A stretch of 48,563 bases of DNA from a bacterium (lineage in GTDB: Bacteria; Arandabacterota; Arandabacteria; Arandabacterales; Arandabacteraceae): contig JAOZOU010000011.1 of assembly GCA_029933125.1 (NCBI GenBank), positions 1 through 48,563 on the forward strand, read 5' to 3'. The notes under the pieces were generated by a model that was not told where the DNA came from, made no database searches, and saw only the letters and a list, made by a program, of their open reading frames with translations. A program made the translations under genes and the position numbers. Positions 29,960-41,710 of this stretch are shown here, in pieces. Each line of letters begins with the position of its first letter. The first letter of the stretch is position 1.

Positions 29960-31030
29960 ATGGGTTTGATTCTTGTCATAAATCCAGGTGGTGGCTCAAC
30001 CAAGATAGCCATTTTTGAAGATGAGAAATGCCTTCTTAAACATACTATTGCTCACCCCCATAGTGAGATATCGAGATTCAAGGACGTTCTCTCCCAACGC
30101 GCCTACCGGGAGGAAGCCATAAGGGAAGCTCTTAAGAGGGAAAGGATTGACCTCAAATCGCTTACTGCAATTGTTGGAAGGGGAGGGGCACTCAAGCCTC
30201 TTGCGAGCGGAACTTATCGTGTCAACAGACTTCTGGCTGATGACATACGAAGTGGACGAGTCCAAACTGAGCATGCTTCAAACCTTGGAGCACTCATCGC
30301 TTATGAACTTGCCGAGGAGCTGGGCATCCCTGCGTTCATGGTTGATCCTGTATCAGTTGATGAATTCATTCCCGAGGCTCGCATATCCGGTATGCCTGAG
30401 ATCGAACGCAGGAGTCTCGATCATCCCCTCAATGCAAAGATAGTAGCACGCAAGGCAGCAGATGAGATCGGCAAAAAGTATGAGGAAGCAAATTTCATCG
30501 TAGCGCATCTTGGCACAGGAATCTCCATAAGTGCACATTTGCGAGGAAGGATGATTGATGTTAACAATGCTCATGACGGAGGTCCTTTTTCGACACAACG
30601 AACTGGCAGCTTGCCTGTCACCCAGCTCGTTGACCTGTGTTATAGCGGCAGATATACACGTGAGGAGATGTTTGCCAAGATCACCCGCGAGGGTGGGCTT
30701 AAGGCTTATCTTGGCACTGATGACCTCCGAGAAATCGAGAAGATGATAGATAACGGTGACAAACGTGCAGAGCTCATTGTCAGGGCAATGACTTATCAGA
30801 TAGCAAAGGAAATCGGAGCGTGTGCGACAACGCTCTGTGGCGATGTTGATGCGATCGTCTTGACGGGTGGTATAGCTTATTCCCAAAGGGTGGTCGACCT
30901 CGTTATAGAGCGAGTAGGTTTCGTGTCTAAGAATATCAAGATATATCCAGGCGAGCATGAGATGGAGGCAATGGCGGTTGGTGCTCTGAGAGTGCTGCGA
31001 GGACTTGAGCAGCCTAAGGAGTACACATGA
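29960..31030 (+). CDS. buk: Butyrate kinase
   Basis: This is 356 residues, the normal length for Buk. The ASKHA phosphate loop reads LVINPGGGSTKIAIFED. Other landmarks are VGRGGALKPLASGTY, DPVSVDEFIPEARISG, FIVAHLGTGISISAH and DAIVLTGGIAYS. The enzyme interconverts butyrate (or branched short-chain acids) plus ATP with the acyl phosphate. The usual partner phosphotransbutyrylase gene is not next to it, which is noteworthy. A ribosome site GAGGTG lies just after the usp stop. The stop overlaps the next start by 4 bp. Confidence 0.93.
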   Translation: MGLILVINPGGGSTKIAIFEDEKCLLKHTIAHPHSEISRFKDVLSQRAYREEAIREALKRERIDLKSLTAIVGRGGALKPLASGTYRVNRLLADDIRSGRVQTEHASNLGALIAYELAEELGIPAFMVDPVSVDEFIPEARISGMPEIERRSLDHPLNAKIVARKAADEIGKKYEEANFIVAHLGTGISISAHLRGRMIDVNNAHDGGPFSTQRTGSLPVTQLVDLCYSGRYTREEMFAKITREGGLKAYLGTDDLREIEKMIDNGDKRAELIVRAMTYQIAKEIGACATTLCGDVDAIVLTGGIAYSQRVVDLVIERVGFVSKNIKIYPGEHEMEAMAVGALRVLRGLEQPKEYT

Positions 31031-31910: not shown

Positions 31911-33803
31911 TCACTGATTGGCTTTTTGTGAAAGAATTGGTTCAATTGCTTTGATAAGACTCTCGATCTCCGTGGTTTTAAGTGAGCGACCTTGGTGAGA
32001 CAGTCTAAACATGAGAAGTGTATAATCAGCTCCGTCTACGACGGTGAAACTCTCGAGTCCGAAACGGGTTGCTTCCTCGATAATGTCTGGCAAGAACTTT
32101 TTCTTTGGTGGATGCACGATTGTCAAAACTGTGTAGGAGGCACCTCGCCCGCTCGGACCAAGCTCAATCGAGCGCGTGGCTATCAATGGTTTTCCATCGG
32201 ACTGCCTTCTCCACTTTTCAATAGTTTCGATTCCTGCTTCTACTTGCCCAAGGATCTCCTCATCGGATACGGTTGGTGAGATTATCTGTTTATCACCAAA
32301 CCTGGCGACTATTTGCCTTGCAAGTTCGGGATCGTAGCCTTTCTGAGTCACCATTGAACATATCCGCTCAGTACGTGCCTGGCGTAGCTGCCTTCCTGTG
32401 CGATCAAAAATGCGAATCTTCGGGCCAATAGGTTTGACTGCACGTATAGCATCCTCGATCTTGTTGAATATCAATTCATCACGATATGGTCCCTTCGGTG
32501 TACCAAAGAAGGTTTCGAAATCAACCCAGACATCTATTATTGCAATCTCTTGGACACTTGCCTGATCTGCTGTTGCAGAGGTTACAAGTGAAGGCGGATC
32601 TGGCATGGCTGCCTCAAGCCCCGGAATCCTGTTTATCTCTTCAATGAGATCGAATGCATGGCCACGATCAGAGCCGGAAGTCACAAGCACAACCTTTATA
32701 TTGGAACGGCTGTGGGGATGCATGTAGACCTGAGGTATGCGCAGGTGCCGCTCCTCCTCGAGCATGACGGGGCATATCTTTCTGCCAATCAGTTCGACTC
32801 CTGGGGAGAGTCTGTCGCAAACCGGCACATCCTTGACTTCAATCAGTTTGCGCTCTAGCTCGACTTGCTGATCATTTGTAAGAGCTCTACCTTTGGCATC
32901 AACGATCTCTATCCTGAAGACATTTATGCCATCACCGGTAATAAAGGCTTTATCATATTTGCGCTGATATCCAGGGACAGTCTCATCGATTACCCTGAAG
33001 ACATCACCCATTGACAGATCATGTTCGTAGCCAGCAATCGATATTCCTGTTAGCTCGCCTCCAGCAGTTTTGAGATTAGTCACCTTAGCATAGATGCGAC
33101 CTGTCTCTCTGACCTTTTTCTGGAAGGTGTAGTTGGTGTAGACTTGCTCAGCCAGATCCTTCGGGCTACGCTCAGCTAGGTAGGCAAAGGTTCTCGCAAG
33201 AAAGAATCTCACAGCCTCACCCTTCTCACCAAAAAGATCTGGATACTCAGATGGATCGGCGAGCTTCCGCAGTTCCTTCCTCACAAGTGAGTATTGTTCA
33301 GCCTTCTTCGTAGCCATGATTAGTAGGTCACGTTTGCCTGTTTCTTCAGCTGCTCGGAGCGTGAGGGCTTCACTGATCTCGGGCTCAAGGCGGAGGAGGT
33401 TTTCGAAAGTTCCTTCGTCGCTGACATCAATTTCCATGAAGATGAGACCAACCTTGCGATCCTGTTCATCGATTAGCACAGCTTCGCAGAAGGCTATGTT
33501 GAAACCTTTCTCGTGCAAGGTGCCAGTGCAACTATCAATCAAGCCAGGCCAATCCAAGGCGAGTACTGCAAAAGTGACTGATGGACGCCCGAGCGCATAA
33601 CGCAAGGGCTTTGGACTTATGTATATGTGCACACGACCTGAATTCTGACGATCCCTTTCGATGAGCTCTATTGCAATTGCAAGGTAATGGGAAGGCATAC
33701 GAGCAGGGTATCTGCCCGAATTCTTAATCATGTGGTATGCTTCTTCTATCCTTTCATCGGGGATTCCTTTGTCAGCAAGTAGTTTCTTTACTTTCTCAAG
33801 CAC
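31911..33803 (-). CDS. Multi-ACT-domain protein of unknown function, last gene of the Tol-Pal operon
   Basis: This is 630 residues from a GTG at 33803 with GAGGAG 5 bases upstream, inside the end of cpoB. I see at least three ACT-like modules: about 73-127 (TFAVLALDWPGLIDSCTGTL), about 368-428 (IKVVLVTSGSDRGHAFDLIE) and about 556-600 (LTIVHPPKKKFLPDIIEEAT, then GADYTLLMF). The first looks like ACT units that precede catalytic domains in GlnD and in large NAD-dependent glutamate dehydrogenases. Charged helical segments join the modules. No kinase, nucleotidyltransferase or dehydrogenase signature is visible, and there is no signal peptide, so it is cytoplasmic. ACT domains usually bind amino acids. 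A link between amino-acid state and envelope function is inferred only from its operon position. Confidence 0.72.
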   Translation of the reverse strand: MLEKVKKLLADKGIPDERIEEAYHMIKNSGRYPARMPSHYLAIAIELIERDRQNSGRVHIYISPKPLRYALGRPSVTFAVLALDWPGLIDSCTGTLHEKGFNIAFCEAVLIDEQDRKVGLIFMEIDVSDEGTFENLLRLEPEISEALTLRAAEETGKRDLLIMATKKAEQYSLVRKELRKLADPSEYPDLFGEKGEAVRFFLARTFAYLAERSPKDLAEQVYTNYTFQKKVRETGRIYAKVTNLKTAGGELTGISIAGYEHDLSMGDVFRVIDETVPGYQRKYDKAFITGDGINVFRIEIVDAKGRALTNDQQVELERKLIEVKDVPVCDRLSPGVELIGRKICPVMLEEERHLRIPQVYMHPHSRSNIKVVLVTSGSDRGHAFDLIEEINRIPGLEAAMPDPPSLVTSATADQASVQEIAIIDVWVDFETFFGTPKGPYRDELIFNKIEDAIRAVKPIGPKIRIFDRTGRQLRQARTERICSMVTQKGYDPELARQIVARFGDKQIISPTVSDEEILGQVEAGIETIEKWRRQSDGKPLIATRSIELGPSGRGASYTVLTIVHPPKKKFLPDIIEEATRFGLESFTVVDGADYTLLMFRLSHQGRSLKTTEIESLIKAIEPILSQKANQ

Positions 33804-33805
33804 AA

Positions 33806-34576
33806 CTACTCCTCTTGCTCGGGTGGTGGAGGTAGGGTCTTAAGCTGCTCCTCCGCCTGCTTTGCCTCGACACTCGTTGGATAACGACTGATGAGGAGCT
33901 CAAAGTACTGACGTGCAGTCAGCACATCATCAATAGCAGCATAGGATAGTGCTAGCTTATACATCGCTTCAGGCACACGGTCAGCTGTTGGATAATTATC
34001 GATAACTTTGCGAAGTTCCTCTATTGCATTTTCATATTCACCGAGTGCATAGAAGGATTGGCCTATCATAAACTGTGCATCGTCTGAAAAATCTGTCATG
34101 GGATAGCGCTTGACGAAATCTCGGAAGCCTGTTATCGCTTCCTGGAAATTGCCCTTCATGAAATCAGCATAAGCAGTCTGATAGAGGTGAGTTGCAAGGG
34201 AAGCGGTTGCAACTGATGTGTCAACAATTGCAGGGAGGGTATCGCGCCTGGATCGAGAAGCTCTACCCATGCTCAATTGAGAAAGTTTGTAACGATTCTC
34301 CTTAACAAGTGACTCGAGGATCTCGATACGGGTCTGAAGTTCATCAAGTCTACTCTCAAGCATCGCTCTATTTGCTCTGACAGGTGTTGACTTTCTTCCA
34401 ACCGTTGAATCGAGATGACTTACGACATAGGTTACGGCTGCAAGTGAGTCTCTGAGGCTTTCAAGCTCACGATGGTTTTCCTCAAGCTCGAGCTCCATCT
34501 CACTTATCCTTCTGGCATAACATCCTGGAAGTAGAACCACGCCGAGGAAAAGCACAAAAATATGCCTAAGCCTCAT
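33806..34576 (-). CDS. cpoB: Tol-Pal system protein CpoB/YbgF, lipoprotein form
   Basis: This is 256 residues, ATG behind GGAGTACGAA. The N-terminus has a lipobox (LLPGC), unlike E. coli CpoB, which is soluble. A trimer-forming coiled coil spans about 25-105 (ELEENHRELESLRDSLAAV). Three TPR units form the C-terminal half, about 125-250 (LYQTAYADFMKGNFQEAITG, MIGQSFYALGEYENAIEEL, YKLALSYAAIDDVLTARQY). It coordinates peptidoglycan synthesis and outer-membrane constriction in known bacteria. Gene order after pal is canonical. Confidence 0.9.
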   Translation of the reverse strand: MRLRHIFVLFLGVVLLPGCYARRISEMELELEENHRELESLRDSLAAVTYVVSHLDSTVGRKSTPVRANRAMLESRLDELQTRIEILESLVKENRYKLSQLSMGRASRSRRDTLPAIVDTSVATASLATHLYQTAYADFMKGNFQEAITGFRDFVKRYPMTDFSDDAQFMIGQSFYALGEYENAIEELRKVIDNYPTADRVPEAMYKLALSYAAIDDVLTARQYFELLISRYPTSVEAKQAEEQLKTLPPPPEQEE

Positions 34577-34585
34577 TTCGTACTC

Positions 34586-35110
34586 CTATCTTAGGACAAA
34601 TTCCGCTCGTCTGTTCTTAGCCCACGCCTCCTCATTGTGCCTGGGATCTATCGGGCGCTCCTCTCCATAGCTTACTATCGAAATGCGCGATTTTTCAATA
34701 CCGAATCGAACAAGAAAGTCTCGTGCAGCCATTGCTCTTTTCTCACCAAGAGCAAGGTTATACTCTTCTGTTCCCCTTTCATCACAATGTCCCTCTATTG
34801 TGATCTTAACATCAGGATTGTTCATCAGGATTTCCGCATTCTTGGTTAGGATTGCGATTGCTTCATCCGTCAAGTTGTACTTGTCGAAGTCGAAATGAAT
34901 GCTCTCGAGTACTATTTTCTTCTCTTCGGCAGGCTCAAGGGGTTTTATGGGAGTTACCTCTTGTTCAATCTTCTTCTCAGGAGGAGGGGCTTGGGATTTC
35001 TTCTCCACCTGTGTTTGCTCCTGTCCTTCAAGAGGTCTCATTTTTTTGGGATGGCATGCGCCAAAAAGGATAAGACTTACAACGATAAGGCACAAAATGA
35101 AAAACTTCAT
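34586..35110 (-). CDS. pal: Peptidoglycan-associated lipoprotein Pal
   Basis: This is 174 residues. Signal peptide and lipobox LFGAC are at the start. A Pro/Glu/Lys-rich linker (about 25-65) precedes the OmpA_C domain with FDFDKYNLTDEA, ITIEGHCDERGTEEYN and the conserved AKNRRAEFVLR. Tethers the outer membrane to peptidoglycan and binds TolB. 12 bp separate it from tolB and 9 bp from cpoB. Confidence 0.95.
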   Translation of the reverse strand: MKFFILCLIVVSLILFGACHPKKMRPLEGQEQTQVEKKSQAPPPEKKIEQEVTPIKPLEPAEEKKIVLESIHFDFDKYNLTDEAIAILTKNAEILMNNPDVKITIEGHCDERGTEEYNLALGEKRAMAARDFLVRFGIEKSRISIVSYGEERPIDPRHNEEAWAKNRRAEFVLR

Positions 35111-35122
35111 AGGACGACCCTC

Positions 35123-36379
35123 CTAACGGCTTGCTTCATTCATTGTGATCGAATATGCTGACCCACTCCATGATGGGTTCCTTGCATATTCATAGCTGTC
35201 AAGAATTAGACGTTTCCCACCGCCGTCTTTCCTCATAATGTAGATACCTGTCTTGCCGCCTATTGTCGAGGAAAAAGCTATATGCATCCCATCAGGTGAC
35301 CAGGTAGGATCTTCATTGTTTCCAGCCTGAGTGAGAACGTTCACCTCAGTTCCGAATGGATCGGTTGTGCATATCTGAAAGCGTCCATCTATGCGTGAGA
35401 CAAAGGCAATGAGGTCACCTTGGGGTGACCAGGCTGGAGAGGTATTGTAACTGCCTTCGTGCGTTAAGCGCCTGACTGAGATACCTTCGATGTCAGTCAC
35501 GAAGATCTGAGGTGAGCCGGCGCGGTCGGAGGTAAAAGCCAGCTCGAGGCCATTAGGTGCCCAGGTTGGTGAGCAGTCGATGCCTGAGTAAAACGTCACC
35601 CTTCTTATGGACTTTCCATCAGTAGCTATCACATAGATCTCTGGATTGCCGTCCTTGCTCAAGGTGACTGCAAGGTATCGTCCATCAGGTGACCAAGCAG
35701 GTGTTGCATTTAGACCCTCAAATGCAAGGAATCTTGTTGTCTCGAAGCTCGTGATATCTGTGACATAGAGATCGGGCTTGCCCTGGCTGTAGGAGACATA
35801 AGCAAGGAGATTCCCATCAGGTGACCAGGCAGGGCTCATGACTATTCCAGGAACCCTTGTCACCTGCTTCACCCATCTCCCATCGATTGTTGCAACATAA
35901 AGATGTGATTGAGATCTTTTGCCAGCTACAAAAGCAATTCTTGTATTGGCGATTCCGTGTCTTCCCGTCAGTGCAAAAATCACGTCATCAGCAGCAAGAT
36001 AAGCTGTATGCCTTAGAGTTTCGCTCGAGCTGGTATAACGCCTCCTGAAGATTGTTGCCTTTGAGGAATAATCGTCAAGTTTTATCTCATATCCTATCCC
36101 ATCACTTGCTGCTTTTGCCTTGATCTCAACCACGGCTTCCGGCTGTCCACTGGATGAATTCACAATCTCCGCATAGCCTGTTATCTCAATAGCCCACTTG
36201 AAGTAGCTGAGAAAATCGTGGTGTGCCTCCAACAGCGGCGTTAGGAGATCGCCTGTTGAGTCAGCTATTGCGATTGGTATAGCTCGATATTCCTGCTTTG
36301 TTACCTTGAGGTGAACGTCAGGCTGACTGTTGGCAGGACCAACAAGCACTATAAGTAGAAGCCATAGTAGATTACGCAT
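35123..36379 (-). CDS. tolB: TolB, periplasmic beta-propeller of the Tol-Pal system
   Basis: 418 residues from the ATG at 36379. The upstream in-frame ATG at 36421 lies inside the TolA gene and gives no signal peptide at the end, whereas the chosen start does (MRNLLWLLLIVLVGPANS). The start overlaps the preceding stop as TAATG. The N-terminal domain (about 20-140) is followed by six WD40-like PD40 blades with repeated (T/S)PAWSPDG and LAY/IAF motifs, for example MSPAWSPDGNLLAYVS and DPTWSPDGMHIAFSS. It shuttles between Pal and TolA in the periplasm. Confidence 0.94.
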   Translation of the reverse strand: MRNLLWLLLIVLVGPANSQPDVHLKVTKQEYRAIPIAIADSTGDLLTPLLEAHHDFLSYFKWAIEITGYAEIVNSSSGQPEAVVEIKAKAASDGIGYEIKLDDYSSKATIFRRRYTSSSETLRHTAYLAADDVIFALTGRHGIANTRIAFVAGKRSQSHLYVATIDGRWVKQVTRVPGIVMSPAWSPDGNLLAYVSYSQGKPDLYVTDITSFETTRFLAFEGLNATPAWSPDGRYLAVTLSKDGNPEIYVIATDGKSIRRVTFYSGIDCSPTWAPNGLELAFTSDRAGSPQIFVTDIEGISVRRLTHEGSYNTSPAWSPQGDLIAFVSRIDGRFQICTTDPFGTEVNVLTQAGNNEDPTWSPDGMHIAFSSTIGGKTGIYIMRKDGGGKRLILDSYEYARNPSWSGSAYSITMNEASR

Positions 36380-37008
36380 TAACTTGACCTGTGCTCGAAT
36401 TCGAAGTGCACACCCAACCACTTGCCTTTAAAGCCAGCTGGCAAGGGAGGCAAGGGAGCCACTTCGGAAACAGCACGAAGAGCGGACTTGTCGAACATTT
36501 CGGAGCCTGAGCTTTGCTCGAGCTTCAGATCTGAAACATCTCCGTTTCTGGTTATCCTGAAATAGACTGTTGCTACTGTCTTGCCTCCTACAGGAGGGGG
36601 AGACCAGGCATTGCTTATTCGTTCCTTTATGAGCTCAAGATAGTATCCGAATTTGAAATCCTCGTCGACTCGAACACCAGCAGTTCCTTTTGTGCTGGTG
36701 GTAGCTGGTTTGTGTTGTGATTTCTCTTTTCGCGATCTGGTCGACTTTTTTGCTTTTGATGTCTTCTGTTTGGATTTCGCCTTAGGCTTGGTTGACCTGT
36801 ACTTCATTTTCGAATCAGGTGCTTTCTTTGGCTGGGCTTTCTCCTCAACCTTGGCAGGAGCAGTGACTCTTGGCTGTGGCTTGGGTGCAACAAGGTTTAC
36901 TGTGATAACGCTGTTGGAGCTAAGGCGGATTGTTGCGTTTGAGGTGACCATTATTATTGAAAGCAGGGCAAGATGTGCGACTGAAGAGATTGCGAACGAT
37001 TTCTTCAC
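36379..37008 (-). CDS. tolA: TolA/TonB-type energy transducer
   Basis: 209 residues from a GTG at 37008, overlapping the tolR stop (GTGA). One N-terminal membrane anchor (about 5-25), a Lys/Pro-rich linker (about 40-110; KPKAKSKQKTSKAKKS) and a TonB_C domain (about 120-205; YYLELIKERISNAWSPPP, VYFRITRNGDVSDLKLEQSS). The gene position between tolR and tolB indicates a TolA role, although the C-terminal domain has the TonB-like pattern common outside Proteobacteria. It spans the periplasm to TolB or Pal. Confidence 0.88.
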   Translation of the reverse strand: MKKSFAISSVAHLALLSIIMVTSNATIRLSSNSVITVNLVAPKPQPRVTAPAKVEEKAQPKKAPDSKMKYRSTKPKAKSKQKTSKAKKSTRSRKEKSQHKPATTSTKGTAGVRVDEDFKFGYYLELIKERISNAWSPPPVGGKTVATVYFRITRNGDVSDLKLEQSSGSEMFDKSALRAVSEVAPLPPLPAGFKGKWLGVHFEFEHRSS

Positions 37009-37412
37009 CGTCGCCTCGCCTCTTGGTCAGGTTCTGTAACAAGACCAATTCTTGATATACCTGACTTACGAGCAATGTCGAGAACCTTGACAACCGCCCC
37101 GTAGGGAATAGCTTTATCCGCTCTTATAAGGACACCTTTCTTACCAGCACCAGCTGCTTTCTCAAGCTCTCGGGATAGTGCGCCGAGGGGCAAGGTTTTC
37201 GAATCAAGCGTGACCGTTCCATCCTTCTGGATGGTTATTGTTATATTCTCCTTGGTCTCTATCGCCTTGGCTGTGGCTTTTGGTAGATTCACCCTGAGTC
37301 CCATCTGCATGAGAGGAGAGGTTATCATGAAGATGATCAGCAACACCAGTGTGACATCAACAAGCGATGTCACATTTATCTCAGACAGAGACTTTCGCTG
37401 AGTTAAGTTCAC
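37005..37412 (-). CDS. tolR: TolR/ExbD-family proton channel subunit
   Basis: 135 residues from a GTG at 37412; the frame extends to 37541 but that part overlaps tolQ and has no family similarity. AGGG lies 9 bases before the chosen start. The single membrane helix carries the essential Asp19 (INVTSLVDVTLVLLIIFMI). The periplasmic domain ends with GISRIGLVTEP. It overlaps tolQ by 32 bp, longer than usual, which points to tight coupling. Confidence 0.9.
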   Translation of the reverse strand: MNLTQRKSLSEINVTSLVDVTLVLLIIFMITSPLMQMGLRVNLPKATAKAIETKENITITIQKDGTVTLDSKTLPLGALSRELEKAAGAGKKGVLIRADKAIPYGAVVKVLDIARKSGISRIGLVTEPDQEARRR

Positions 37413-38106
37413 GCAGGATTTCCCTCTCGATACGTTCGCCAATTTCGGATGCAAAATTGTCCATCTGAATGGTTTCTCGTCTTGTGAAATTGATAAGCCA
37501 ATTGTATGCGACAAGCGCAGGGATTGCTGCCCCCAGACCAAAAACGGTTGTTATCAGGGCTTCAGCCACTCCTGGTCCCACAACCGTAAGACTGGCTGAA
37601 CCCATCTCACCCATACTCAAGAACGAGTTCATCACTCCCCAAACTGTGCCAAAGAGACCAAGGAAGGGGGAGACACTTGCTGTTGTAGCAAGCACACCGA
37701 GGTGGCGTTCCATCTCATCAAGGCGTTTCAAAGCAAGCCTTTCCATGGCGGATCTTGCTTTGCTTGCAATGACAGGCGCATCTTGAGGAGCAACACTAGA
37801 AAGCACATCAAGGTCGCGCTCAACCGAGTCGGCGGCGGCAAGCAGGAGATGGGGTAAGTTTGAGTTTGAGCAAGTTGAGCCATAACGCTTGGCATCGAAT
37901 ATTGATATTTCATTTGGAAGCTTAGCAAGAAAGCGAATTGTATCGCGCTGGCAAGCTCTAAAGGCTCTTATCTTTTCAATTGCTATTGCCCAGGAGATAA
38001 TCGAAAGCAGAGTGAGGACTGCAAGTATGAGCTTAGCTACCGTACCCGATCCCGATATTATGCTTCCTACATTGGCATTGAGTATGAAGGCAAGAATAAT
38101 TGTCAC
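37381..38106 (-). CDS. tolQ: TolQ/ExbB-family proton channel subunit
   Basis: 241 residues from a GTG at 38106. Three membrane helices: about 20-40, about 138-160 (ASVSPFLGLFGTVWGVMNSF) and about 170-192 (LITTVFGLGAAIPALVAYNW). The MotA/TolQ/ExbB signature is clear. With TolR it forms the proton-driven motor in the inner membrane. It is the first gene of a seven-gene operon and sits behind a strong promoter at 38169-38196. Confidence 0.93.
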   Translation of the reverse strand: MTIILAFILNANVGSIISGSGTVAKLILAVLTLLSIISWAIAIEKIRAFRACQRDTIRFLAKLPNEISIFDAKRYGSTCSNSNLPHLLLAAADSVERDLDVLSSVAPQDAPVIASKARSAMERLALKRLDEMERHLGVLATTASVSPFLGLFGTVWGVMNSFLSMGEMGSASLTVVGPGVAEALITTVFGLGAAIPALVAYNWLINFTRRETIQMDNFASEIGERIEREILRELNSAKVSV

Positions 38107-38168: not shown

Positions 38169-38196
38169 ATTATTGAGAGGGGATGGGAATTGTCAA
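38169..38196 (-). promoter_or_regulatory. Strong sigma70-like promoter of the Tol-Pal operon
   Basis: On the minus strand a consensus TTGACA (38191-38196), a 16-base spacer and AATAAT (38169-38174; 5 of 6). The leader to the tolQ GTG would be about 55 bases. Confidence 0.6.
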
Positions 38197-38358: not shown

Positions 38359-38778
38359 ATGAGCCCAGTAAGAGTTAGGATCTCAAGAGACAAAGTGCGC
38401 AGTGATTTCGTGCGCCTCGTAAACGAGATAAGCGGTCAGAACGTCCTCAACTGTTACCAATGTGGACGCTGCTCGGCTGGCTGTCCGTTGACCTTCGCGA
38501 TGGACATTCTTCCAAGCCAGGTTATAAGACTTGTCCAGCTCGGACTTGAGGAAGAAGCTCTAGGTACGAATACACCTTGGGTTTGCGCCTCATGTATGAC
38601 TTGCTTTGCAAGGTGTCCTAGAGGTGTCGATCTTGCCAAGGTTATGGAGGCTTTGAGGGCAATAAAGCTGCGACCCGGTGACGCAGACAGAATCAGGCTG
38701 AATCAATTCCCACGGGAAGCTCTGGCGAGACTACCTCAGCAAGGGCTTGTCAGTGGCCTTCGTAAGTTTACTGGATAG
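38359..38778 (+). CDS. hdrC: HdrC-like heterodisulfide reductase iron-sulfur subunit
   Basis: 139 residues, ATG behind GGGGGAGAA. Two complete 4Fe-4S motifs: C32-x2-C35-x2-C38-x3-C42 and C76-x2-C79-x2-C82-x3-C86 (NCYQCGRCSAGCPLTF and VCASCMTCFARCPRG). The spacing and the short alpha-helical frame match HdrC, which passes electrons between HdrA and HdrB. Cytoplasmic, with no membrane segment. First gene of a five-gene operon, with gaps of 24, 16, 21 and 20 bp. Confidence 0.92.
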   Translation: MSPVRVRISRDKVRSDFVRLVNEISGQNVLNCYQCGRCSAGCPLTFAMDILPSQVIRLVQLGLEEEALGTNTPWVCASCMTCFARCPRGVDLAKVMEALRAIKLRPGDADRIRLNQFPREALARLPQQGLVSGLRKFTG

Positions 38779-38802
38779 CATGTTGAGGCTGAGGAGGGCA
38801 AG

Positions 38803-39720
38803 ATGGAGATAGCTTACTTTCCTGGCTGTACCCTCAGGACTAAAGCCATCGGTTTTGACAATTCGGTTAGGGATACAGCTAAAGTTTTCGGTTATGATCT
38901 TGTTGAAGTCCCTGACTGGACATGTTGTGGCGCCACTTTTAACCTCTCAGTTGACAATGTTATGGCTCTTGCTCCTCCGATCCGAATCCTTGCCAATGCA
39001 AGAAAGTTAGGTAATGAGGTTATTACCGTTTGCTCAGGATGCTACAATGTTCTTAAACGTGCCAACTACACAGTCAGAAATGATTCGGAGAAGCTTGCAA
39101 AGATAACAGACTTCATTGAAATGGAATATGATGGAGATGTAGAAGTAATTCATTATCTTGAATTCCTCAGAGATAGGGTTGGATATGAAACGATAAAGAC
39201 TAACATCAAACGCAATCTTGAAGGACTCAAAGTTGTTCCCTACTACGGGTGTCAGCTCTTGAGACCATATGATGAAATCCAGCTAGACGATCCTGAGGCA
39301 CCGACCATTCTGGATGAAGTCCTTGATGCTATGGGATGCACTGTTGTCGATTTTCCCCATAAGGCTGAATGCTGCGGCAATTTTCTATCTGTGTGCACAG
39401 ATCTTACACCTGAAGGACGCCAGGCAGTTGGCGAGGAAGCAGCGACTGCTGTAAGTGAATGTTCCTTCACCATACTTGATGCTGCAGCCAGAGCAGGGGC
39501 TGATCTCGTTGCACTATCCTGTCCACTCTGTCTATACAATCTTGACGTTGCTCAAGATCAAATAGAGAAGATTCACTTTGGCTTTCGAAAGATGCCCATT
39601 GTCTATTTCAGCCAATTGCTTGCGATTGCACTCGGTCTGGACACTGACAAGTACGCTCTCGATAGTGAGCACCACTTTGTCGATCCTTCAGCAGTTGTGC
39701 GATCGGTAGCTAAAGAATGA
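38803..39720 (+). CDS. hdrB: HdrB-like heterodisulfide reductase catalytic subunit
   Basis: 305 residues, ATG behind GAGGAGGG. Two CCG modules that in methanogen HdrB hold the noncubane 4Fe-4S clusters. Module 1: C9, C41-C42, C77, C80 (CX31-CC-X34-CX2C). Module 2: C150, C190-C191, C240, C243 (CX39-CC-X48-CX2C). The second CC-to-CxxC distance is about 12 residues longer than the usual 35-36. HdrB reduces a disulfide; the physiological disulfide in bacteria is generally unknown. It lies between hdrC and hdrA. Confidence 0.93.
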   Translation: MEIAYFPGCTLRTKAIGFDNSVRDTAKVFGYDLVEVPDWTCCGATFNLSVDNVMALAPPIRILANARKLGNEVITVCSGCYNVLKRANYTVRNDSEKLAKITDFIEMEYDGDVEVIHYLEFLRDRVGYETIKTNIKRNLEGLKVVPYYGCQLLRPYDEIQLDDPEAPTILDEVLDAMGCTVVDFPHKAECCGNFLSVCTDLTPEGRQAVGEEAATAVSECSFTILDAAARAGADLVALSCPLCLYNLDVAQDQIEKIHFGFRKMPIVYFSQLLAIALGLDTDKYALDSEHHFVDPSAVVRSVAKE

Positions 39721-39736
39721 TGTGCGAGGTGGCCAA

Positions 39737-41710
39737 ATGAAGCGCATAGGGGTTTTCGTCTGTTGGTGTGGATCCAACATTGCAAGTACAGTTGATGTGG
39801 GACGGGTTGTAGAGGAGGCTGGCAAGCTCCCTGGCGTTGTGCATGCTGAGGATTACAAGTATCTGTGTTCTGATCCGGGACAGAACATCGTCCAGAAGGC
39901 GATAGAGGACTACAGCCTTGATGCCGTCGTGATAAGTGCGTGCACCCCGAGTCTGCATGAGCCTACGTTCAGAAAGGCTGTAGAGATGAAGGGTATGAAT
40001 CCCTATCAGTGTGAGATAGCCAATATACGTGAGCAATGTAGTTGGGTCCATGAGGATAAGGAAGCAGCAACCGAGAAAGCTATTAAGATCATCCGTAGCA
40101 TTGTTGAGAAGGTAAGAAGAAATGAGTCGCTCGAACCCATCACGGCACCTCTCACCAAGCGTGCCCTTGTGATTGGAGCTGGCATAAGCGGCATCCAAGC
40201 TGCTCTTGACATTGCAAATTCCGGCTATGAGGTCTTGCTTGTTGAGAAGCAACCATCCATTGGTGGACACATGGCTCAGCTTTCTGAAACCTTCCCGACT
40301 CTGGATTGCTCCCAGTGTATCTTGACTCCCAAGATGGTTGAGGTGAGCCGCCATCCCAAGATAAGACTTCTAACCTACAGTGAAGTCCTTGAGATCAGTG
40401 GCTTCCTTGGCAATTTCAATGTCAAAATTCTTAAGAAGCCACGCTATGTTGATGAAACGCTTTGCAACAGCTGCGGTGAGTGCAGTGAAGTTTGCCCCGT
40501 TGTCGTTCCGAATGAATTCGAGCGTGGGCTGAGCTCGCGCCACGCTATATATGTTCCATTCCCGCAGGCGGTCCCCTCAGTCTATACCCTTGATGCTGAA
40601 GCATGTTTGGGGCTTTTCCCACTTGCCTGTGAGAAGTGCAGCAAGGTTTGTGAGACAAATGCCATCAACTACGACATGGAACCAGAGATTATAGAGGAAA
40701 CGGTTGGTGCTGTTGTGGTTGCAACCGGTTACGATCTTTACCCGATAGATGAGATAAAGGAATATGGCAATGGCAAGATCCCTGATGTGATTGACGGTCT
40801 TCATTTTGAGCGTCTGCTTTCGGCTTCAGGTCCAACGGAGGGTGTCGTCAGAAGACCATCTGATCACAAGATTCCAAAGGAAGTGGTCTTTGTTCAGTGT
40901 GCAGGCTCAAGGGATACTGAACGAGGTAAGCCGTATTGCTCAAAGATCTGCTGTATGTACACGGCAAAGCATGCGATGCTTTACAAACATAAGGTGCCTG
41001 ATGGTCAAGCCTATATCTTCTATATAGATGTAAGGGCTGGTGGAAAGGGCTATGAGGAGTTCTACCAGCGCGGCATTGAGGAGGATGGTACAGTTTATCT
41101 GCGTGGAAAGGTCTCAAGGATTTTCCAAGACGGTGACAAGGTCATTGTCTGGGGATCTGACACGTTGACAGGCAAGAAGATCGAGATTGCAGCCGACATG
41201 GTCGTTCTGGCAGCACCGATAGTGCCGTGTGAGGGCAGTGATGATCTCGCGCGAAGGCTCAAGATTCAGACAGATGCAAATGGATTCCTTTCAGAGGTTC
41301 ATCCCAAGCTCAGACCGGTCGAGAGCATCACTGCGGGATTCTTCCTGGCTGGAGCCGGGCAGGCTCCAAAGGACATACCTGAAGCGGTTGCTCAGGCAAG
41401 CGGGGCGGCCAGCAAGGTTGTTGCTCTGTTTGCCAACGATGTCGTTGAGCATGATCCGATGATAGTAGGGGTAACCGAAGATATGTGTAGTGGCTGTGGT
41501 GTCTGTGTTGGCGTATGCCCATTTGGTGCTAGGGAACTTGATACTGAAAGAAAGAAGGTTAAGGTTCTTGAAGTGCTCTGTGAAGGCTGTGGCGCTTGCA
41601 GCGCAGCCTGTCCAACAGGTGCAGCTCAGCAGAGAAATCTTAATGATGAACAGTTGACAAGTATGGTTGGGGCAACTCTCGCCGAAGCCTTAGAGGGCTC
41701 GGACTCTTAA
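39737..41710 (+). CDS. hdrA: HdrA-like flavin- and iron-sulfur subunit
   Basis: 657 residues. The ATG at 39737 follows GAGGTGG by 4 bases and gives the family's usual opening KRIGVFVCWCG. The thioredoxin-reductase-like FAD domain has VIGAGISGIQAALDIA (145-152 for the glycine motif) and EKQPSIGGHMAQL. Cluster motifs lie at C243/246/249/253, C290/298/301/305 and in two C-terminal ferredoxin units (CSGCGVCVGVCPFGA and CEGCGACSAACPTGA). In methanogens HdrA performs flavin-based bifurcation. No MvhD, Flox or hydrogenase gene is next to it, so its electron partner is unknown. Confidence 0.93.
   Translation: MKRIGVFVCWCGSNIASTVDVGRVVEEAGKLPGVVHAEDYKYLCSDPGQNIVQKAIEDYSLDAVVISACTPSLHEPTFRKAVEMKGMNPYQCEIANIREQCSWVHEDKEAATEKAIKIIRSIVEKVRRNESLEPITAPLTKRALVIGAGISGIQAALDIANSGYEVLLVEKQPSIGGHMAQLSETFPTLDCSQCILTPKMVEVSRHPKIRLLTYSEVLEISGFLGNFNVKILKKPRYVDETLCNSCGECSEVCPVVVPNEFERGLSSRHAIYVPFPQAVPSVYTLDAEACLGLFPLACEKCSKVCETNAINYDMEPEIIEETVGAVVVATGYDLYPIDEIKEYGNGKIPDVIDGLHFERLLSASGPTEGVVRRPSDHKIPKEVVFVQCAGSRDTERGKPYCSKICCMYTAKHAMLYKHKVPDGQAYIFYIDVRAGGKGYEEFYQRGIEEDGTVYLRGKVSRIFQDGDKVIVWGSDTLTGKKIEIAADMVVLAAPIVPCEGSDDLARRLKIQTDANGFLSEVHPKLRPVESITAGFFLAGAGQAPKDIPEAVAQASGAASKVVALFANDVVEHDPMIVGVTEDMCSGCGVCVGVCPFGARELDTERKKVKVLEVLCEGCGACSAACPTGAAQQRNLNDEQLTSMVGATLAEALEGSDS

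Follow-up and report, generated by a model that had tools for sequence, protein, structure and literature searches.

A conserved family of proteins with four predicted ACT-like modules, encoded at the end of the tol-pal operon in Arandabacterales

Results

The multi-ACT gene and its operon

The stretch of DNA analysed here (48,563 nucleotides of contig JAOZOU010000011.1, in the following the window) carries a tolQRAB-pal-cpoB operon that is followed by a gene for a protein with several predicted ACT-like modules, here called the multi-ACT protein. The open reading frame (ORF) lies on the minus strand at 31911..33803, starts with GTG and encodes 630 aa. Within the operon it occupies the seventh and final position. 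Its start codon is located 2 bp past the stop codon of cpoB (...gagcaagaggagTAGttGTGcttgag), and its ribosome site AGAGGAG lies within the final cpoB codons. Pfam searches identified the upstream genes, all on the minus strand, as tolQ (37381..38106; MotA_ExbB, 1e-32), tolR (37005..37541; ExbD, 1e-31), tolA (36379..37008; TonB_2, 5e-18), tolB (35123..36421; PD40, 2e-53), pal (34586..35110; OmpA, 3e-23) and cpoB, also named ybgF (33806..34576; TPR_6, 9e-23). The original prediction, made from the sequence of the window, had described the ORF, the 2-bp gap, the ribosome site inside cpoB and the seventh position in the operon, and all of these were confirmed. Because the protein is conserved in 21 other genomes (22-80% identity), the ORF is not a chance frame.

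Sequence searches and predicted structure

Members of the multi-ACT family pass no Pfam or NCBIfam cut-off. When the window protein was searched as a single sequence, the sole hint of an ACT domain was a sub-threshold match to ACT_AHAS_ss (E 0.038, residues 79-130). Against the Pfam ACT clan it scored 14.6 bits at a cut-off of 27, and the best E-value of any family member (0.0037) also remained below the Pfam cut-off. The family profile matched the regulatory subunit of acetohydroxyacid synthase (AHAS; 6u9h) in the PDB with an E-value of 0.0058. A catalytic domain was detected in the window protein by none of the Pfam, NCBIfam and PDB sequence searches, and no member, all being about 556-635 aa long, carries a fused one; in particular, the catalytic domain of glutamate dehydrogenase (GDH; PF05088 or PF00208) is absent from the chain that bears the ACT-like modules. 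The multi-ACT protein also has no signal peptide and no hydrophobic or transmembrane segment. Thus, both the lack of a catalytic domain and the cytoplasmic location that had been proposed were borne out. A RecX-like match (residues 471-501, E 0.008-0.1) consisted of helices only and was rejected, as were PDB matches to an endoxylanase and an Ile-tRNA ligase at chance level.

The predicted structure of the window protein contains four ACT-like units (predicted local distance difference test, pLDDT, 80). The same layout was modelled for a relative that is 27% identical (L028, pLDDT 75), although the two alignments overlap in sequences and the models are therefore not wholly independent. Every predicted domain in both models is either an ACT-like module or a helical linker, and a catalytic fold is absent. 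On the minus strand, the first module (ACT1, residues 59-138; 33390..33629) is indicated by the model, by conservation and by the ACT_AHAS_ss and AHAS profile matches mentioned above. It is followed by a helical linker (residues 156-234; 33102..33338), which is seen in the model and by conservation and contains the invariant residues E196, F200, R204 and Y208. ACT2 (32841..33092) is supported by the model and by module-versus-module profiles, in which it is weakly similar to ACT1 and ACT4. ACT3 (residues 358-454; 32442..32732) and ACT4 (residues 540-628; 31920..32186) are taken from the model, and a conserved motif, R464-x-F466-D467-xxx-R471 (32391..32414; RDFDEGMR in most relatives), lies between them. 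By fold, the protein is thus predicted to be an ACT-domain regulatory protein with four ACT-like modules. The multi-ACT architecture that had been claimed stands, with four modules in the models where at least three had been counted.

In Foldseek searches of the PDB, the top match of both models was the large glutamate dehydrogenase L-GDH180 of Mycobacterium smegmatis (7jsr), with E-values of 7e-11 for the window protein and 2e-11 for L028, each at a probability of 1.00. The fold of the N-terminal segment of L-GDH was recovered in this way, the aligned region of the target being unspecified and the TM-score low. The kinship to large glutamate dehydrogenases noted earlier is therefore borne out in shape, for two distant members. 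The changed topology of the modelled ACT-like modules has also been described for those of L-GDH180 (PMC8175468). Further structural matches were a Galdieria protein with two ACT-like domains (2nyi, both models) and the SerA-type Ser33 (second model). Matches to LAGLIDADG endonucleases had a low probability, reflected generic alpha/beta likeness and were rejected.

Across 21 aligned members, which share about 22-30% identity between lineages, 19 columns are invariant. Five of these lie in ACT1 (D84, W85, G87, H97, N102), where they hold in 22/22 members compared, and a second set extends beyond it (E196, F200, R204, Y208, E299, G335, E337, R341, P345, E350, Q358, G395, R464, F466). When aligned with the regulatory subunit of AHAS, D84 and N102 correspond to positions that contact the bound amino acid in the ACT domains of SerA and IlvH. 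The invariant set of ACT1 thus resembles an amino-acid-binding signature, from which amino-acid sensing by the multi-ACT protein is reasonably suggested.

Distribution and genomic context of the family

The multi-ACT family is real, conserved and uncharacterised. It comprises about 30 carriers from 11 GTDB families and several phyla, with identities down to 22%, and the protein is stand-alone and single copy in all of them. Profile searching identified a single copy in each of 21 carriers among 386 genomes, the gene being split over two contigs in one carrier. In a second search of 289 genomes, family f133 was positive in 10/10 genomes, and the phylum of G037 carries the gene in 4/4. Homologues are present in every genome examined from the family and order of the window (G000-G006; in the following the home order), whereas a class-mate, G007 (96% complete), has tolQ/A/B and no family member. 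Related contigs belong to Meg22/M3-30 metagenome-assembled genomes (MAGs) and to 'Eisenbacteria' CSMAG MAGs; outside the home group, one named carrier is a MAG from Cloacimonadota and another bears the label Desulfuromonas sp. SDB. The description of the phylum Joyebacterota draws on Meg22-type MAGs from the Guaymas Basin, refers to genomes from cold seeps and states that its MAGs were formerly assigned to Eisenbacteriota (PMC9727166), so that the home phylum probably corresponds to Joyebacterota. Single in-frame stops (TGA, TAA, TAG) interrupt otherwise conserved genes in G060 (C35:9-1676), G062 (C302), G158 (C212) and G140 (C1), and are probably assembly errors or matches that overrun the true start.

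In the home order, the multi-ACT gene lies behind cpoB on the same strand with a gap of 2-58 bp in 7/7 genomes (in G005 on a split contig). This linkage extends over two families and 55-80% identity, with a variable set of genes on the downstream side; in the window, the downstream neighbour is a convergent EamA transporter gene. Among the lineages examined, linkage to tol-pal is confined to the home order. At all other loci read the neighbours differ from tol-pal, and the TolB homologues of these carriers are encoded on contigs other than that of the multi-ACT gene. Three carriers (G037, G140, G276) possess complete tolQRAB-pal-cpoB operons that end in cpoB and are followed by unrelated genes, with no multi-ACT gene. 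In a quick tree with midpoint root and long branches, the home sequences group into a single clade whose closest relatives are those of f133; the linkage was therefore probably gained once. A general tol-pal link of the family is not supported. In the literature collection searched, nothing relevant was found on ACT domains with Tol-Pal, on DUF4159 or on stand-alone ACT sensors.

Outside the home order, five genomes from two lineages have an alternative conserved neighbour directly upstream, in some cases with overlap, namely a gene for a protein of the DUF4159 family (L029:7171-7797, L017:5345-5977, L047:10704-11462, L048:1420-2076, L045:10653-11282; PF13709 with E 1e-59 and 1e-71 in the two tested), and DUF4159 was rejected as a universal partner for this restricted occurrence. 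Other neighbours, some of them named by eye, are TatD-like and radical SAM proteins (f151), tilS-hpt-ftsH-like genes (G376, G249), a HAD hydrolase (f133), and butyrate kinase and fructose-bisphosphatase (G136). The butyrate-kinase-like gene of the distant G136 (L057:7871-8947) adjoins the multi-ACT gene divergently and is 52% identical to a window copy (29960-31030), which lies two genes from the multi-ACT gene in convergent orientation; this may be chance.

Regarding the rest of the window operon, the listed tolR ORF extends some 160 bp into tolQ. Its relatives are 133-135 aa long, which suggests an internal start, probably at about 37412. A promoter-like site upstream of tolQ (TTGACA-16-AATAAT, 11/12 match; minus strand, 38169..38196) was found in a motif scan, in which the number of such sites across the region is not above chance expectation. 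From 38359-41710 and beyond, a divergent cluster encodes Fe-S/heterodisulfide-reductase-like proteins (assigned by eye) and is syntenic with tol-pal in the home order.

Glutamate dehydrogenase and PII in carriers

The home genome encodes a small GDH and no L-GDH, and no L-GDH occurs elsewhere in the home phylum. An ELFV dehydrogenase was matched in 21/22 carriers, nearly always in a frame of small-GDH size, and in 14/14 controls. One carrier, G089, encodes both the multi-ACT protein and a 974-aa L-GDH115-like enzyme (G089:C112). Several uncultured lineages (L075-L078) likewise encode GDH-like proteins of roughly 1000 aa that resemble L-GDH115 and are matched only weakly by PF05088. When the family was compared with four L-GDH115-like and 13 L-GDH180 sequences, the 180 kDa ones being short of part of the N-terminus, HHalign probabilities stayed below 1%. 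Common descent with L-GDH is therefore not established.

The nitrogen regulator PII (PF00543) is scarce in carriers. It was found in 6/22 carriers in a focused search, most matches being weak, and in 4/21 carriers versus 231/365 non-carriers in a wide search (1/14 carriers outside the home phylum). Fisher p-values were 9e-5 and 3e-5, both ignoring shared ancestry. Carriers listed as having no PII match, uncorrected for phylogeny, are G037, G060-G062, G089, G114, G136, G140, G146, G249, G276, G282, G295 and G376. G007, which has no multi-ACT gene, likewise lacks PII. That the multi-ACT protein serves where PII is absent is an unproven hint and is treated here as a lead only.

Discussion

In this study, the last gene of a Tol-Pal operon was found to represent an ancient single-copy family that is spread over several uncultured phyla and was recognised by none of the domain libraries tried. 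With moderate confidence, we favour the explanation that the multi-ACT protein is a free-standing cytosolic allosteric amino-acid sensor that acts in trans on a partner. Since relatives occur in many uncultured phyla away from Tol-Pal, the protein is probably a metabolic sensor rather than part of the envelope, and neighbours that differ between lineages are as expected of a general regulator without a fixed operon. The scarcity of PII in carriers also counts in favour of such a sensor. We infer amino-acid binding, oligomerisation and regulation of the partner. By analogy to L-GDH180, the four ACT-like modules would mediate its assembly into dimers or larger oligomers. An amino acid may bind at the ACT1 interface near D84/W85/G87, H97 and N102, as the invariant signature suggests, and binding could change the quaternary shape and thereby alter a partner protein, much as free regulatory subunits such as IlvH/IlvN act on AHAS. 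The natural candidate partner would be an enzyme from the metabolism of amino acids or nitrogen. In the home order, a single event would have placed the gene at the end of the tol-pal operon, giving it growth-linked co-expression and probably no physical role in envelope constriction.

Several observations weigh against this explanation. In profile comparisons, ACT3 is not similar to any of the other modules, and the low Foldseek TM-scores (0.15) indicate that the modules are arranged differently from L-GDH180 or flexibly, so that the likeness concerns module type and order and not a rigid arrangement. No amino-acid-metabolism gene recurs consistently across the neighbourhoods of the loci read, and the PII pattern may merely reflect shared ancestry or lifestyle. 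Moreover, polar residues beyond ACT1 (E196, R204, Y208, E299, E337, R341, E350, Q358, R464) are conserved more strictly than is usual for a pure sensor, which could point to catalysis. Potentially, the protein might thus be an enzyme, of unspecified reaction, with an active site between the ACT-like modules and these modules as scaffold or feedback sensors. The 19 invariant columns, a good many of which are charged residues beyond ACT1, speak for it; however, neither model contains a catalytic fold and similarity to any enzyme family is lacking, and we consider this unlikely.

It is tempting to speculate further that a previously undescribed, stand-alone, L-GDH-like four-ACT family is the main amino-acid or nitrogen sensor in several uncultured phyla that lack PII, and that one order wired it into tol-pal expression; this broader proposal is improbable as a whole. 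Another idea, that the protein is the detached regulatory half of a large GDH and controls in trans the small GDH with which it shares the cell, draws on L-GDH180 as the best structural match, on the ELFV dehydrogenases of nearly all carriers and on the missing L-GDH of the home phylum. However, profile similarity to L-GDH180 or L-GDH115 is not detectable, the near-universal occurrence of ELFV dehydrogenases makes their co-occurrence uninformative, both proteins coexist in G089, and no gdh was noticed next to the multi-ACT gene in the loci read. We regard it as quite unlikely.

The original prediction was a cytoplasmic amino-acid sensor that adjusts envelope constriction or growth to the nitrogen state; such a sensor would work with Tol-Pal and match the constriction driven by TolQRA, or the growth of the envelope, to the supply of amino acids. 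The constant position behind cpoB in all seven home-order genomes, next to a variable downstream side, is consistent with it. This link was nevertheless not borne out and appears doubtful at best, because homologues lie mostly away from tol-pal, the operons of G037, G140 and G276 end without the gene and the linkage appears as a single gain. In addition, the tolQ-side neighbours are also syntenic, so that the conserved block adds little, and G007 keeps tolQ/A/B without a family member. An inner-membrane, periplasmic or outer-membrane location expected of a Tol-Pal component was not found either. Finally, a decaying L-GDH fragment or functionless operon passenger, to which the absent catalytic domain might point, is highly improbable given the full-length single copy in almost all genomes of its lineages and the invariant ligand signature, and the truncated or degenerate GDH considered with the original prediction is rejected, as the family is old and has been conserved in its stand-alone form, and L-GDH is missing from the home genome and phylum.

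If the multi-ACT protein does sense amino acids, it would reveal how the nitrogen state is gauged in lineages that have no PII and would offer stand-alone sensor modules for studying the regulation of large GDHs. The locus also illustrates that a neat operon can mislead, as the tol-pal link fails in the wider survey.

Among known systems, structure prediction likens the family to a giant glutamate dehydrogenase reduced to its sensor half. Structurally it comes closest to the regulatory segment at the N-terminus of L-GDH180, whereas the multi-ACT protein is free-standing, lacks the catalytic and C-terminal domains and shows no detectable sequence similarity. Tandem ACT proteins of the GlnD/GcvR/ACR type share the D-x-P-G-L signature with it, and the two-ACT-like Galdieria protein is among the structural matches, although the multi-ACT protein has no nucleotidyltransferase or HD domain and differs in the number and spacing of modules. 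Compared with the AHAS regulatory subunit (IlvH/IlvN), it has four modules and more than 600 aa, gives no significant family-level match and does not adjoin ilvB in the home order; yet the AHAS subunit is likewise a free-standing ACT protein, and its D..G and G-x-N-I positions align to ACT1.
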